From: Thermoplasmata archaeon
GTDB lineage: Archaea; Thermoplasmatota; Thermoplasmata; Lutacidiplasmatales; UBA184
Reading direction: 5' to 3'
Assembly: GCA_035622275.1 (NCBI GenBank)
Contig: DASPVQ010000015.1
Coordinates: 1 to 64,000 of the forward strand
Length of the DNA: 64,000 nucleotides
Below the pieces are notes generated by a model that was not told where the DNA came from, made no database searches, and was given only the letters and a program-made list of their open reading frames with translations. The translations under genes were made by a program, and so were the position numbers. Position 1 is the first letter of the stretch, and the number at the start of each line of letters is the position of its first letter. This document shows, one piece after another, positions 5,805 through 11,701 of this stretch.

Positions 5805-6572
5805 GTGGGGGAGATCCGACTCGGGACGAGCGGCTGGGACTATCCGGAGTGGGTCGGGCGCGTCTACCCGCCGCACGGCGCGTCGGACCGGCTGCGCTAC
5901 TACGCGGGCCTGTTTCCGATCGTCGAGGTCAACTCGACGTTCTACCGCCTGCCGCTCGTCTCCGTCGCGGGGTCGTGGGTCCGTCGCACGCCCGCCGGCT
6001 TCCGCTTCGCGGCGAAGTTCCCGCAGACGATCACCCACGACCTGCGCCTGGTCGGCACCGACGAGGAGCTCGCCCGCTTCCTCGCGGTCCTCCGGCCGAT
6101 CCGGGAGGCCGGCAAGTTCGCGGTCGCGCTCCTCCAGCTTCCGCCCTCGCTCCCGTTCGAGCCGGGCACCGTGCGCACGTTCTACCAGTCGCTGCCCCGC
6201 GATCTGCCGGTCGCGGTCGAGTTCCGGGAGCGCTCGTGGCTGGTGCCCGAGTCGTACCGGCTCCTCGAGGAGTTCGGGCTCGCCTACGTCGTGATCGACG
6301 GGCCGCACCTGCCCATCGACCTGCGGGTGACCGCGCCGTTCGCCTACGTGCGCTGGCACGGCCACGGCAGCCCGACGTGGTACGACTACACCTACTCGGA
6401 GGCCGAGGTCGCCGCCTGGGTCCCGCGGGTGCGCACGCTCGCCGAACGGGCGGAGGTCGTCTACGGGTTCTTCAACAACCACTTCCGCGGCGACGCGGCG
6501 GTGAACGCCCGCTCGCTCGGCGAGCTGCTGGGGCTCCCCCCACCTCCGGGGAGCTCGCGACTCGACCCGTAG
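5805..6572 (+). CDS. DUF72 (YecE-like) TIM-barrel protein
   Basis: 255 residues starting with GTG. The N-terminal L-G-T-S-G-W-D-Y-P-E-W and the later E-V-N-S-T-F-Y-R and F-N-N-H-F-R-G-D-A are hallmarks of the DUF72/YecE family, a TIM-barrel fold of unknown biochemical function found in bacteria and archaea. Expressed divergently from the cupredoxin. A GTTAAC element lies near 5767-5772, slightly far (about 33-38 nt) from the start codon. Nothing around it reveals a substrate. Confidence 0.9.
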   Translation: MGEIRLGTSGWDYPEWVGRVYPPHGASDRLRYYAGLFPIVEVNSTFYRLPLVSVAGSWVRRTPAGFRFAAKFPQTITHDLRLVGTDEELARFLAVLRPIREAGKFAVALLQLPPSLPFEPGTVRTFYQSLPRDLPVAVEFRERSWLVPESYRLLEEFGLAYVVIDGPHLPIDLRVTAPFAYVRWHGHGSPTWYDYTYSEAEVAAWVPRVRTLAERAEVVYGFFNNHFRGDAAVNARSLGELLGLPPPPGSSRLDP

Positions 6573-6671: not shown

Positions 6672-6698
6672 GAAACGCTTCGTTCCCGGCCCTGTTTC
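6672..6698. promoter_or_regulatory. GAAAC/GTTTC inverted repeat upstream of the RadA-like/PolB promoter
   Basis: GAAAC at 6672-6676 and GTTTC at 6694-6698 are reverse complements with centres 22 nt apart, about two helical turns. The pair lies 20-45 nt upstream of a TTTAGA box (6719-6724), a usual place for archaeal activator sites. Candidate operator only. Confidence 0.35.
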
Positions 6699-6718
6699 AA
6701 CGTCTCCCGAGCCGCCGC

Positions 6719-6724
6719 TTTAGA
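6719..6724 (+). promoter_or_regulatory. TATA-like box of the RadA-like/PolB operon
   Basis: TTTAGA, 26-31 nt before the in-frame GTG at 6750. This spacing is the main reason for preferring that GTG over the ATG at 6627, which lies upstream of the box. Confidence 0.5.
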
Positions 6725-6749
6725 GCGCACCGGCCCCTCGGTCGAAGCG

Positions 6750-7637
6750 GTGGCTTCGATGGCGTACGCGGTCGAGATCGAGCCGGCGCTCGCGCCGGAG
6801 GACGCCGAGCCGTTCGCGCTCCCCGGGCGCGACGCACCGGCGATGCCCCGGCCGATCCCGGACGCCCCGCTCCCACGGATCCGCCTCGCGCCGCGGCCCC
6901 GGCGATCGCGCTCGCCGGCGATCCTTCCGCGCGAGCCCGCGCTGTTCCCCTGGCTCGCCCGACGGTTCGCACCGGGCGAGGCGACGGTCTGGACCGGCCC
7001 GCGGACCGCGCTCGAACCGATCCTCGAGCTCCTGTATGCGGGGAGCGCGCGCGCCCGCGGCCGGATCTCGCTGCTCGAGGGGGCGAACCGCTTCCATCCG
7101 TACCGCGTCGGCGAGCTCGGGCGGTCGCTGGGGGTCGACGCGACCGAGACGCTCCGGCGGATCCGCCTTGCCCGCGCGTTCACGGCCTACCAGATGGTCG
7201 CGCTCGTCGACGGCTGGGCCGCCGAGGTGCGCCGGCACCGGCCGACGCTCCTGGTCGCCCACGAGCTCCCCGCGCTCTTTGCCGCGGACGAGGTCCCCGA
7301 CGACGAGCGCGTGGCGCTCCTGCGCCACGTCGCCCGGGTCCTGCGCGCGCTCGCCGACCGTGTCCGCGCGCCGCTCCTCGTCACGCTCGCCCCGGGCGGC
7401 CTCGCCCGGTTCCCCGGCCTCGCCGAGGAGGGTCCGCGCTGGTGCGACTACCTCTCGTTCGTCCGCGGGCCGTCGACCGTGCGCGTGCACGCGCTGCGCG
7501 ACGACGGCCGCCTCACGCTCATCCCGCGGGCCGGGGGCCAGCGCGGCATCGAGGAGTTCGGGAGCCCGTCCAACGAGGAGGTGATCGCGTGGGGCGCACC
7601 GCCCCGACGTACCGCCAGGCGCTCGAGGAGCGGATGA
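6750..7637 (+). CDS. RadA/RecA-fold paralogue lacking Walker motifs
   Basis: About 295 residues. The middle aligns by eye with the RadA recombinase core: L-L-E-G-A-N-R-F-H-P-Y-R-V fits the D-T-E-x-x-F-R-P-E-R segment, and R-L-A-R-A-F-T-A-Y-Q-M near residue 140 fits the V-A-R-A-F-N-S-N-H-Q-M segment. The place of Walker A reads W-T-G-P-R-T-A-L-E-P with no Gly-Lys-Thr, and the Walker B aspartate position reads V-A-H-E. It should not hydrolyse ATP in the usual way. It overlaps the next small gene, which is followed 2 nt later by a family-B polymerase, so a scaffold role for that polymerase is inferred. GTG at 6750 is preferred; an ATG lies at 6759. Confidence 0.7.
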   Translation: MASMAYAVEIEPALAPEDAEPFALPGRDAPAMPRPIPDAPLPRIRLAPRPRRSRSPAILPREPALFPWLARRFAPGEATVWTGPRTALEPILELLYAGSARARGRISLLEGANRFHPYRVGELGRSLGVDATETLRRIRLARAFTAYQMVALVDGWAAEVRRHRPTLLVAHELPALFAADEVPDDERVALLRHVARVLRALADRVRAPLLVTLAPGGLARFPGLAEEGPRWCDYLSFVRGPSTVRVHALRDDGRLTLIPRAGGQRGIEEFGSPSNEEVIAWGAPPRRTARRSRSG

Positions 7638-7843
7638 AGCGCTGGGACGAGTTCGCCCGTCTCCTCACGACGCCGGAGGAGCGCGCGGCGTTCGAGACGC
7701 TGCGCACCGGCGCCCGACGCTACGCCGCCCAGGCGACGTACGTCGGGAGCCCGGACCTCCTAGAGTCGATCCTCCTCTCCGTCCTCCTGGACCTCGCGCG
7801 CCGGCTCCCCGCGGAGCCGCCGGCCCGGGCGCTGCCCCGCTGA
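7589..7843 (+). CDS. Small conserved-looking protein between RadA-like and PolB genes
   Basis: 84 residues with a GTG start inside the 3' end of the RadA-like gene (49-nt overlap), ending 2 nt before the polymerase start. The product is predicted to be helical: a charged N-terminal half (R-W-D-E-F-A-R-L-L) and an amphipathic C-terminal half (L-L-E-S-I-L-L-S-V-L-L-D-L-A), ending in a Pro/Arg-rich tail. No known domain is recognised. Position implies a small subunit of the same complex. Confidence 0.65.
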   Translation: MGRTAPTYRQALEERMKRWDEFARLLTTPEERAAFETLRTGARRYAAQATYVGSPDLLESILLSVLLDLARRLPAEPPARALPR

Positions 7844-7845
7844 CC

Positions 7846-10155
7846 GTGGGGAGCGCGGCGCCGGACGGCTGGCTGCTCGACATCACCGAGAGCGACGACG
7901 GCCGCTCGGTCGTGCTCTGGGTCAAGGAGCGCGCGACGGCGCGGGTCCGGCGCACCGCGGTCGAGTTCCGCCCGCCGTTCCTCGTCGCCGGCGCCCGGGC
8001 CGACCTCGCCGCGCTCGAGCGCCGCCTCGCCCCCGAGGCGTCCGTCGCCCGGATCGAGCGGCGGGTGCTCGCGCCGTCCCTCTACGACCGGCGGCCGCGC
8101 ACGGTCCTCGCGCTGACCCCGGCGCGCCACCCGCTGCGGCGCGCCCTCGCGCGCACGGTCGACGCGCTCGGAGGGTTCGAGCGCTACCGCCTCTACGACG
8201 TCGACCTCGGGGCGCCGCAGCTCTACCACCTCGGGCACGACCTCTACCCGTTCGCCCCGGTCGTCGGCCAGGGCGCGGACCTCCGTGCGACCGAGCCCGC
8301 CGAGACGATCGACTACCCGACGCCCCCCTTGCGCGTCGCGCGGTTGGAGGTCCGCCTCGCCGGGACGCGACGGGGCCGCCTGCCGCCGGCCGACGCGCGG
8401 ATCGGCGCGATCCGGCTCGGGGAGGTGACGATCGAGGGGAACGAGGGGGCCATCCTGCGCGCGCTCGTCGACGAGCTCGCGCGCAGCGACCCCGATGTCC
8501 TCCTCACCGGGGGCGGGGACGCCTTCGACCTGCCGTGGCTCTACCGACGGGCGAGCGCCGTCGGCCTCGGGCCCGAGGAGTTCGGTCTCGGCCGGGAGCG
8601 CGCGTCGTTCCGCCCGTCCCGCGGGGCGCGCACGTTCGAGTCGTACGGCCGGGTCTACCACCGCGCGGCCGCCTACCCGGTGCCGGGCCGCTTCCACCTC
8701 GATCGGGAGAACTCGTTCCTGTACGACGACACCGAGATCCCGGGCCTCGTCGACGCGGCGCGGCTCTCGCGCCTGTCCCTTTCGACGGTCGTCCGCCAGT
8801 CGCCGGGGACCTGCTTCACCGCGATGGAGATGGCCCATGCCCTCGCCCTCGGTGCCCACGTCCCGTGGAAGAAGAACCGGCCCGAGATGTTCCGGCGCGG
8901 CGACCACCTGGTGAACGCCGATCGCGGCGGGGTGATCTTCCTGCCGCCGGTCGGGGTGTTCGACCGGATCGACGAGTTCGACTTCGCGAGCCTCTACCCG
9001 TCGATCATGGTGCGGAACAACCTGTCCGCGGAAACGCTCGAGTGCCGGTGCTGCCCGGCGAGCCCGATCCGCGCCCCCGGGCTCGGCTACCGCTCGTGCG
9101 TGCGCCGGGTCGGCCTGATCCCCCGGACGCTCGCGCCGCTGCTCGCGCGCCGTCACGCCTACAAGGCGGCGATGAAGCGGCCCGGGACGCCCCCCGAGGA
9201 GGTCGTGCGCCTGAAGCGGCGGGTCAAGATGCTCAAGTGGATCCTCGTCACCGCCTTCGGCTACCAGGGCTATCGCAACGCCCGCTTCGGGCGGATCGAG
9301 TGCCACGAGGCGATCAACGCCTACGCGCGGCGCCTGCTCGCCGACCTCGTGCCGGCCGCGGAGGCCGCCGGCTACCGCGTCGTCCACGGGATCGTCGACT
9401 CGCTCTGGCTGAGGCCGCTCGTTCCGGACCGGTGCCCGGACCCGGAGGCGTTCGCGCGGGCGATGAGCGAGCGCTTCGACCTGCCGCTCGGCTACGAGGG
9501 TCGGTACCGGTGGATCGTCTTCCTGCCCGCGACGACGCACGGGCTGGGCGTGCCGAACCGCTACTACGGGCTCTACGAGCACGGGGAGTTCAAGCTCCGC
9601 GGGATCGGCTCGCGCCGGCACGACACCCCGCTGCTCCTGCGCCGCTTCGAGGGGGAGGTGCTGAGCCTCTTCCGCGGGGCCCGGGACGCCGCGGGCGTGC
9701 GCGCGCTCCTCCCCCGGGCGCTCGCCCGGGCGGACCTGTTCGCCGAGCGCGTGCGCGACGGCGCCTGGCCGGTCGACGAGCTCGTGATCGCCCACCGGCT
9801 CGGCCAGGCACCGGAGGCGTTCGTGACGTTCACCGACAGCGTCGCGGCGCTCCGCCAGCTCGCCGAGGCCGGGGCACCGCGCGGGGCCGGCGAGACCGTG
9901 CGCTACGTCGTCCTCGACCGGACGAGCCGTTCGTTCCGCGCGCGCGTGCGGATCGTCGAGGCGCTCACCGGCGACGAGCGCTACGACCGGGACGCCTACC
10001 TCGAGCTCCTCGCGCGGTCGGCGGAGACGCTCCTCGCGCCGCTCGGCGTCGATCGGGAGGATCTCCTCGCGCGCTGGGGGGTCGCCCCGCCGCCCGAGCG
10101 CGAGCCGTACCGGTCCCCCGAGGCGATCGAGCAGGGCGCCCTCGACGCCTCGTGA
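7846..10155 (+). CDS. Divergent family-B DNA polymerase (PolB2-like, exonuclease apparently lost)
   Basis: 769 residues, GTG start. Polymerase motif A is intact (Asp379 in D-F-A-S-L-Y-P-S-I). Motif B is altered: K464 is followed by L-V-T-A-F-G-Y-Q-G-Y instead of the N-S-x-Y-G core. Motif C reads H-G-I-V-D-S, so Asp518 remains but the first Asp of the usual D-T-D is Ile516. In the exonuclease domain the D-I-E of motif I reads R-L-E (166-168) and motif II keeps only F-D. Proofreading is therefore probably absent, while the two main catalytic aspartates persist. Such degenerate motifs are known from the archaeal PolB2 group (Dpo2 of Sulfolobales). A damage-tolerance polymerase is inferred. Confidence 0.85.
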   Translation: MGSAAPDGWLLDITESDDGRSVVLWVKERATARVRRTAVEFRPPFLVAGARADLAALERRLAPEASVARIERRVLAPSLYDRRPRTVLALTPARHPLRRALARTVDALGGFERYRLYDVDLGAPQLYHLGHDLYPFAPVVGQGADLRATEPAETIDYPTPPLRVARLEVRLAGTRRGRLPPADARIGAIRLGEVTIEGNEGAILRALVDELARSDPDVLLTGGGDAFDLPWLYRRASAVGLGPEEFGLGRERASFRPSRGARTFESYGRVYHRAAAYPVPGRFHLDRENSFLYDDTEIPGLVDAARLSRLSLSTVVRQSPGTCFTAMEMAHALALGAHVPWKKNRPEMFRRGDHLVNADRGGVIFLPPVGVFDRIDEFDFASLYPSIMVRNNLSAETLECRCCPASPIRAPGLGYRSCVRRVGLIPRTLAPLLARRHAYKAAMKRPGTPPEEVVRLKRRVKMLKWILVTAFGYQGYRNARFGRIECHEAINAYARRLLADLVPAAEAAGYRVVHGIVDSLWLRPLVPDRCPDPEAFARAMSERFDLPLGYEGRYRWIVFLPATTHGLGVPNRYYGLYEHGEFKLRGIGSRRHDTPLLLRRFEGEVLSLFRGARDAAGVRALLPRALARADLFAERVRDGAWPVDELVIAHRLGQAPEAFVTFTDSVAALRQLAEAGAPRGAGETVRYVVLDRTSRSFRARVRIVEALTGDERYDRDAYLELLARSAETLLAPLGVDREDLLARWGVAPPPEREPYRSPEAIEQGALDAS

Positions 10156-10204: not shown

Positions 10205-11701
10205 ATGGCCGCGACGCGACGAGCCCGCGCCCCCCGACCGACCGGGCGCGGGCGCCGACGGCCCGGGACACGGGCGGCCCCGAGCCCCGCGCGCCGGGCC
10301 GCGGCGATCCGCGCGAGCGTCGCCCGCGGACGGCTCGACGACCTCACGCCGCTCCTCGCCGCCCTCAGCGATCCGACCGCGGGCGTCCGCCAGACGGCGG
10401 CGATCGCCCTCGGGATCCTGAAGGACCCGCGGGCGCGCAGCACGGTGTCGACCGCGCTCAGCGACCCGGATCCCGCCGTGCGCGCGTGCGCTGCCGAGGC
10501 GCTCGGGGCGATCGGCCGGGCGGAGAGCCGGGAGGTGCTCGAGCAAGCGCTCGACGACCCCGTCGCGCACGTCCGGGCGCGAGCGGCCGGTGCGCTGAGG
10601 GCCCTCGCCGACGCCCGGAGCGCCGGCGCGCTCGCCGCTCGCGTGGGGGACCCCTCGGTCGAGGTCCGCCAGACGATCGCCATTGCGCTCGGGGGCCTCG
10701 AGGGGCCCGAGGCCGAGGCTGGCCTGCGCGGGCTGCTCGCCGATCCGGCCGACCGGGTCCGCCGCGAGGCCGTGCTCGGCCTCGGACGACGTCGCGGCGA
10801 GGAGGTCGCGCGGTCGATCCGCCCGTTCCTATCCGATCCGGCCCGCCGGGTGCGCGCCGCCGCGGCGGTCGTCCTGGGCCGTCACCGCGACCGCGACAGC
10901 GTGCCCGCCCTGCTCACGCGACTCGCGCAGCCCGAGACCTGGGAGAAGCCGGCCGTCCTGGTCGCCCTCGGTCGCATCGGCGATCCGTCGGCCGGGGCGG
11001 CGCTCGTCGCGGCCGCGGACCACCCGGCGCCGTGGGTCCGGGTCTGCGCGGTCCACGCGCTGGGTGAGCTCGGAGGCGAGGCCGCGGGCCGGGTCGCACG
11101 CGCCCACGCCCGGGATCCGGCCTGGTCGGTGCGCGGGGCGTGTGCGCTCGCCCTCGGAGCGGTCGGGGGGCCGGACGACCTGGCCCTCCTGCTCGAGCTG
11201 CTGCGCGACGAGAACCCCTGGCCCCGTCGCGGCGCGATCTACGCGATCGGCCGGCTCGGGCTCCAGGAGGCCGCGCCGCGGATCCGCGACGAGCTCGCCG
11301 ACCCGGCGGCCGAGGTCACGCTCGCCGCGATCTGGGCGCTGGGCCGGCTCGGCGACGACGGTGCCCGCGAGGCCCTCGTCCGGCGACTGGTCCAGTGGCG
11401 CGCGGCCGCCGGCCCGGGACGGCCAGCGGCGGCCGACTCCGCCGGTGGCCTCGTCTCCGACGCCGAGAGCCGTCTGTTCGACGCCGCGGTGCAGGCGCTC
11501 GGGCGGATCGCGATCGGCGCGGACGACCTCTACGTCGCGCGGGCCCTGCGCGACGCGCGCGGGGCGCTCAGCGAGGAGGACCTCGACCGGGTCGCCCGCC
11601 TGCCGCTCCCCGAGCTCGGGGTCGACGCGGCGCCTCCGACCTTGCGGGCGCTCTTCGACGCCGCCCTCCCCGGCTCGATCGCGGACGACGAGTCCCCATG
11701 A
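10205..11701 (+). CDS. HEAT-repeat (PBS-lyase-type) scaffold protein
   Basis: 498 residues. After a basic, Arg/Pro-rich N-terminus of about 30 residues, the protein is built of about a dozen helical repeats of some 31 residues with the recurring pattern D-P-x-x-x-V-R-x-x-A-A-x-A-L-G. This is the short HEAT/PBS-lyase repeat, a protein-protein interaction solenoid. No catalytic domain is attached. The stop overlaps the next start (ATGA), so it is probably translated together with the acetyltransferase that follows. Partner unknown. Confidence 0.85.
   Translation: MAATRRARAPRPTGRGRRRPGTRAAPSPARRAAAIRASVARGRLDDLTPLLAALSDPTAGVRQTAAIALGILKDPRARSTVSTALSDPDPAVRACAAEALGAIGRAESREVLEQALDDPVAHVRARAAGALRALADARSAGALAARVGDPSVEVRQTIAIALGGLEGPEAEAGLRGLLADPADRVRREAVLGLGRRRGEEVARSIRPFLSDPARRVRAAAAVVLGRHRDRDSVPALLTRLAQPETWEKPAVLVALGRIGDPSAGAALVAAADHPAPWVRVCAVHALGELGGEAAGRVARAHARDPAWSVRGACALALGAVGGPDDLALLLELLRDENPWPRRGAIYAIGRLGLQEAAPRIRDELADPAAEVTLAAIWALGRLGDDGAREALVRRLVQWRAAAGPGRPAAADSAGGLVSDAESRLFDAAVQALGRIAIGADDLYVARALRDARGALSEEDLDRVARLPLPELGVDAAPPTLRALFDAALPGSIADDESP

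Follow-up and report, generated by a model that had tools for sequence, protein, structure and literature searches.

The 64,000-nucleotide stretch of DNA analysed here (the window) belongs to a 1.73-Mb genome, 97% complete, of an uncultured Thermoplasmata archaeon. Three adjacent genes in it encode, in this order, a RadA-like protein without Walker motifs (iRadA), a small helical protein (PPB2) and a PolB2 DNA polymerase. This operon is very probably a PolB2 mutasome (iRadA–PPB2–PolB2) that acts by the mechanism proposed below. An operon of PolB2, arCOG07300 and inactive RadA was described earlier (Makarova 2014, PMC4104785), and the name "PolB2 mutasome" comes, together with AlphaFold complexes, from Timinskas 2025 (PMC11791011). 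A preliminary description of the window had proposed an archaeal mutasome-like damage-tolerance complex with the dead RadA and the small protein as accessory subunits. Sequence, fold and conservation support this functional inference as essentially right; it agrees with the literature and is not new. New with respect to the two studies are the member from a Thermoplasmata genus, the fixed 49-nucleotide (nt) overlap of its first two genes, the counts of a PCNA-type motif on iRadA in this genus, and a conserved promoter box common to the operon and radA.

The iRadA–PPB2–PolB2 operon

All features are given on the + strand. The gene for iRadA (292 residues) extends from an ATG at 6759 to a stop ending at 7637, that for the arCOG07300-like PPB2 (84 residues) from a GTG at 7589 to 7843, and that for PolB2 (769 residues) from a GTG at 7846 to 10155. 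These open reading frame (ORF) coordinates confirm the layout first described, with a 49-nt overlap between iRadA and PPB2 and a 2-nt gap before PolB2. Among 40 genus loci, 39 have an overlap of exactly 49 nt and one has 37 nt. Within it, one stretch of DNA codes in two reading frames for the iRadA tail and the N-terminal MGRT arm of PPB2.

The first gene product is iRadA, a protein of the RadA/Rad51 family. It matches Pfam Rad51 above the curated cut-off (E 6e-6) and, among chains of solved structures, RadA/RAD51 (E 9e-7). In a Foldseek comparison with the PDB, the best 50 matches of its predicted model (30 sequences, pLDDT 85.7, pTM 0.79) are all RAD51, DMC1 or RadA entries (E about 1e-11), consistent with a RadA/Rad51 fold. 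The same genome also encodes a canonical PolB3-like polymerase and an intact RadA (G000:C14). In the alignment of iRadA with this RadA, Walker A changes from GEFGSGKTQ to TGPRTALEP and Walker B from LLVVDSL to LLVAHEL, and the ARAF core is retained. The Walker A pattern GxxxxGK[ST] was found in none of the 54 collected iRadA sequences. The claim that the first protein is related to RadA and lacks Walker A and B is thus borne out, the relation by Pfam, solved chains and Foldseek and the lack of the motifs by the alignment. Residues 1–60 are predicted to be coil, with no N-terminal helical domain.

Near the C-terminus of iRadA lies QRGIEEF (7539–7559), a motif resembling a PCNA-interacting peptide. 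The pattern Qxx[ILM]xx[FY] recurs in the iRadA tails of 38 of the 40 genus sequences and of 10 of the 14 class sequences (shuffled mean 0.1–0.3), and the four class tails without it belong to short frames of 149–207 residues in which the true tail is possibly not reached. None of the 41 genus PolB2 tails carries this motif. The distribution between the two proteins in the genus fits the published rule that the clamp-binding motif is on iRadA or PolB2, rarely on both (PMC11791011). In another family (L226), a further iRadA-type protein with a weak Rad51 match is encoded ~126 nt past a promoter box of the kind described in the next section.

PPB2 begins with MGRTAPTYR, and no collected member lacks a GRT (or GKS/GRS) arm; T7, R9, L26 and E59 are invariant. 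Its predicted model comprises three helices and a free arm formed by residues 1–7, the architecture also described for published PPB2 (PMC11791011). Searches of Pfam, NCBIfam and the solved structures of the PDB gave no significant match for PPB2.

PolB2 matches DNA_pol_B in Pfam and, in NCBIfam, models of archaeal PolB (E 5e-117). It has an intact motif A, DFASLYPS. In its motif C, HGIVDS (9385–9402), the first Asp of DxD is replaced and the second kept, as had been proposed (IVD for DTD, both main catalytic Asp kept). Motif C is HG[IL]VDS or HGIIDS in the genus and in those class relatives where it was found, and aligned relatives retain both the Asp of motif A and the second one of motif C. 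Residues 284–287 form HxDR, the PPB2-contacting D(K/R) motif of the published mutasome; most genus members and three class loci (L042, L052 and L053) have DR or DK, and in the remaining class relatives a different residue comes after the D. Motif B reads KWILVTAFGY. Within this motif, PolB2 of L052 and L053 contains a ~165-residue in-frame insertion (about residues 456–620) that starts with Cys (CLDSGTEIPF...) and ends ...THN before Cys; it is a mini-intein.

The exonuclease motifs are degenerate. Aligned with SFDIE of the genome's own PolB3, motif I (ARLEVRL, 8338–8358) has L-E-V-R for F-D-I-E. The exonuclease loss noted in the preliminary description therefore stands, while its alignment of R-L-E with D-I-E does not. 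The ExoII Asp is retained in the genus and lost in other relatives, and the PolB2 segment that bears a YxxxD-like ExoIII motif in PolB3 is deleted. The altered Asp motif of ExoI and the missing ExoIII segment together indicate that exonuclease activity has been lost.

Replacement of the first motif C Asp, of motif B residues and of the exonuclease motifs might also be expected if the complex were a damage- or fork-responsive regulator of replication, with the polymerase serving mainly as a binding scaffold rather than as a synthetic enzyme; a possible role in replication regulation was proposed by Makarova 2014 (PMC4104785). We regard this as improbable, given that the motif A Asp and the second motif C Asp persist in aligned relatives and that a motif C of this kind occurs in Dpo2, a polymerase active in extension (PMC8764526).

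Among 101 genomes searched, PolB2 is found at E <= 1e-30 in 71, of which 51 are same-genus relatives; the named relatives of the window's genome are Thermoplasmata metagenome-assembled genomes. A survey of the trio in relatives, suggested at the outset, shows that it is conserved: among the loci read, nearly all of the genus and 14 of the class have iRadA and PPB2 beside PolB2, and the three genes remain adjacent and on the same strand. Other families of the class have retained the trio as well. The PolB2 search gave no match in some relatives, including three genomes of the same order, and inteins occur in two relatives, features that could fit a relic or a mobile-element cluster without present function. 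Intact frames throughout the genus, the identical overlap in 39 of 40 loci, the invariant PPB2 residues and a conserved dedicated promoter speak against such a cluster, and it is hardly credible.

A HEAT-repeat protein gene (10205–11701) lies ~50 nt downstream of PolB2 in the window and adjoins PolB2 in many genus loci; it is a possible further member of the operon. One locus (L023; G037:C153:6074-10657) has two inverted PolB2 copies ~43 nt apart, which may be an assembly palindrome.

A promoter box common to the operon and radA

Upstream of the trio lies a DUF72 family gene (5805–6572; Pfam DUF72, E 1.6e-63), a linked neighbour outside the trio's own promoter and of a family enriched beside polB2 in a published survey (PMC11791011). 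In the genus, it ends less than 400 nt from the iRadA core in 26 of the 33 loci that have it, and lies 0.8–2.4 kb away in the other 7. Between DUF72 and iRadA, conservation peaks at G(A/G)AACG-N-CGTTC-N-(C/T)GTTTCA-N-C(T/C)CCC-N9-CTTTAGAG, with the ATG ~35 nt further on. In the window, this peak comprises an operator-like region, GAAACG-CTT-CGTTC ... TGTTTCA (6672–6699), made of inverted CGTTYC half-sites (exact inverted part 6672–6685) plus a third copy, and a box with its TATA box, GTTTCA-ACG-TCTCCC-GAGCCGCCG-CTTTAGAG (6694–6725). Of 39 genus loci, 34 have the promoter pattern including TATA; the mean for dinucleotide shuffles is 0.02. The pattern accompanies the trio even where DUF72 is distant, which suggests that these genes have a promoter of their own.

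The operator-like pattern has one promoter-positioned full match genome-wide. Other sites of the longer GRAACG..GTTTC element in the own genome are scattered, none being promoter-positioned at a repair gene, and this longer part thus looks private to the PolB2 operon. The box itself is common to the operon and the genome's own radA (G000:C14), whose promoter is CACCGTTTCGGGACCCCTCCCGCACGCTTAT with the box in the form GTTTCGGGACCCCTCCCGCACGCTTA. A GTTTC-form box also occurs at radA of 9 further genus genomes, and the radA promoters of the genus agree with one another. In 12 genus genomes, the pattern GTTTCRN{2,8}CYCCCN{5,12}CTTW occurs at 23 sites and its reversed control at 3; derived as it was from the radA and operon promoters, it shows rarity rather than an independent discovery. 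These sites comprise 10 radA promoters, 5 promoters of this operon and 8 elsewhere, one of them at an alpha/beta-hydrolase-like ORF of the own genome (C5:2155).

The form found at the radA and iRadA promoters of other families is ACTTTCR-N-CCYCYCC-TATA; the window's genus has no ACTTTC-form sites and uses the GTTTC form instead. A first class-wide pattern gave 33 sites against 9 for reversed controls in 14 genomes and included the promoters of RadA, RPA, an XPF-like ERCC4 protein and HARP, those of the RPA and XPF genes carrying a looser form of the box. With a stricter pattern, 81 genomes yielded 74 matches, including overlapping ones, compared with 5 for controls. In 19 of 30 box loci read, several of which come from closely related species and are not all independent, a gene starts 8–40 nt past the match. 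Recombination or repair genes account for 15 of these 19: radA (6), rSAM_link_UDG (2), HARP (2), iRadA, PPB2, top6B, an XPD-type helicase and xseA. The remaining four encode a NotI-type protein, a BRO protein, an IS605 transposase and a short ORF. At L213, a class relative, the box is directly upstream of PPB2, which is the first gene after it. Two genomes (G100 and G116) contain many near-identical copies of the box, some at contig ends; there, the box may be carried by a mobile element and be damage-inducible.

Similar elements are known in other archaea. Four UV-B-induced genes of Halobacterium, radA1 and top6B among them, have TTTCACTTTCA upstream of TATA, as does radA of other haloarchaea and of Methanospirillum (PMC2556686). 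In Sulfolobus, damage-regulated promoters contain ANTTTC, which is bound by Orc1-2 (PMC9738581, PMC5817253). The Thermoplasmata box has in common with these elements the TTTC core and the position, which in Halobacterium is likewise just before TATA, and it has radA and top6B as targets like the Halobacterium motif. It differs from both in the C[TC]C[TC]CC tract that follows TTTC, and the iRadA promoter further adds the GAAACG/CGTTC half-sites. We found no paper on the box in Thermoplasmata, within an incomplete coverage of the literature.

The box could instead be a lineage-specific core promoter, an unusual B recognition element (BRE) plus TATA, and be uninformative on DNA damage. It lies directly upstream of TATA, so its C-rich half could belong to a core element, and in two relatives (L113 and L218) IS605 OrfB-type transposase genes have the damage-type box ahead of them. 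Against this, the box is rare genome-wide, with 15 of the 23 sites in the genus at radA or iRadA, and in the class sample it is followed mainly by recombination and repair genes. The TTTCA-repeat motif at the same position in the UV-B-induced radA1 and top6B of Halobacterium (PMC2556686) also argues against it. On balance, we judge the core-promoter explanation rather unlikely, though it deserves more weight than the scaffold or relic explanations of the trio.

The distribution of the box suggests one shared DNA-damage switch for the mutasome and repair genes and predicts a damage-inducible regulon. In its broadest form, this would be an SOS-like regulon of Thermoplasmata marked by NTTTCR-N2-6-CCYCYCC upstream of TATA. 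It would comprise radA and, in varied families, RPA, topoisomerase VI, XPF, an XPD-type protein, exonuclease VII, a radical-SAM/UDG-linked protein and the PolB2 mutasome, and in the window's genus would have shrunk to mainly radA and the mutasome operon. The box would be cognate with the Halobacterium radA1 UV motif and perhaps with Sulfolobus ANTTTC, so that one ancestral archaeal switch may underlie all three. This broad proposal stands about an equal chance of being right or wrong. The genome encodes two Orc1/Cdc6 paralogues, of which the divergent second one (G000:C20, L092), with Walker motifs, is a candidate regulator purely by analogy with Sulfolobus Orc1-2; in the upstream stretch that was read, neither orc1 gene has the box.

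Proposed mechanism and relation to known systems

We propose that DNA damage would activate the promoter at 6672–6725 through the GTTTC/CTCCC box common with radA. The observed overlapping layout would lead to co-production of the three proteins from one transcript. Being incapable of ATP binding or hydrolysis, iRadA would act as a structural subunit that binds PolB2 by the kind of contact with which RadA oligomerises, and its conserved C-terminal QxxIxxF motif would tie the complex to PCNA. PPB2, modelled as a trimer in the literature, would place its conserved MGRT arm between PolB2, iRadA and DNA, as in the published models. PolB2, which retains two catalytic Asp but no proofreading, would then extend mismatched or lesion-blocked primer ends, as S. 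islandicus Dpo2 does.

Several observations weigh against this reading. Four class loci (L054–L057) have only a PolB-like match and no detectable full trio. The box patterns were drawn after the promoters had been viewed, which makes the radA and iRadA hits partly circular, but not those at other repair genes. S. islandicus Dpo2 copies undamaged DNA with high fidelity (PMC8764526), and "error-prone" therefore applies only to its extension role.

With this operon, the range of a translesion complex modelled only recently extends to a large group of uncultured archaea; there, selection holds fixed the 49-nt overlap, the MGRT arm and the clamp motif on iRadA. The promoter box, if its role is true, matters more: little is known about DNA-damage regulons in Euryarchaeota, and a box defined by its sequence and common to radA and the mutasome leads to a directly testable prediction of expression.

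In one operon, bacterial ImuA–ImuB–DnaE2 unites an error-tolerant polymerase with two accessory proteins, one of them RecA-family-like. The parallel drawn with it in the preliminary description is valid for this plan but not for homology. DnaE2 is a family C polymerase, whereas that of the window belongs to family B, and the Y-family-like ImuB contrasts with the 84-residue helical PPB2, which has no family match. Homology of the first protein to ImuA finds no support: the profile search that had been proposed for it gave Dmc1, Rad51 and RadA as the best NCBIfam matches, with no ImuA model. With Sulfolobus islandicus Dpo2 (PMC8764526, PMC7390963), which extends mismatched and lesion-blocked primers without proofreading, the window's PolB2 shares the replaced first Asp of motif C, the loss of proofreading and the operon context; biochemistry and genetics exist for Dpo2, while the PolB2 described here is known from its sequence. 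The closest known system is thus PolB2–iRadA–PPB2 rather than ImuA–ImuB–DnaE2. The published PolB2 mutasome (PMC11791011, PMC4104785) has the same three families in the order iRadA–PPB2–PolB2, the MGRT arm, the IxD motif C, the dead exonuclease, the absent Walker motifs, the DUF72 neighbour and the clamp motif on iRadA instead of PolB2. No structural difference separates the two, family membership in the present case being known from sequences and single-protein models.

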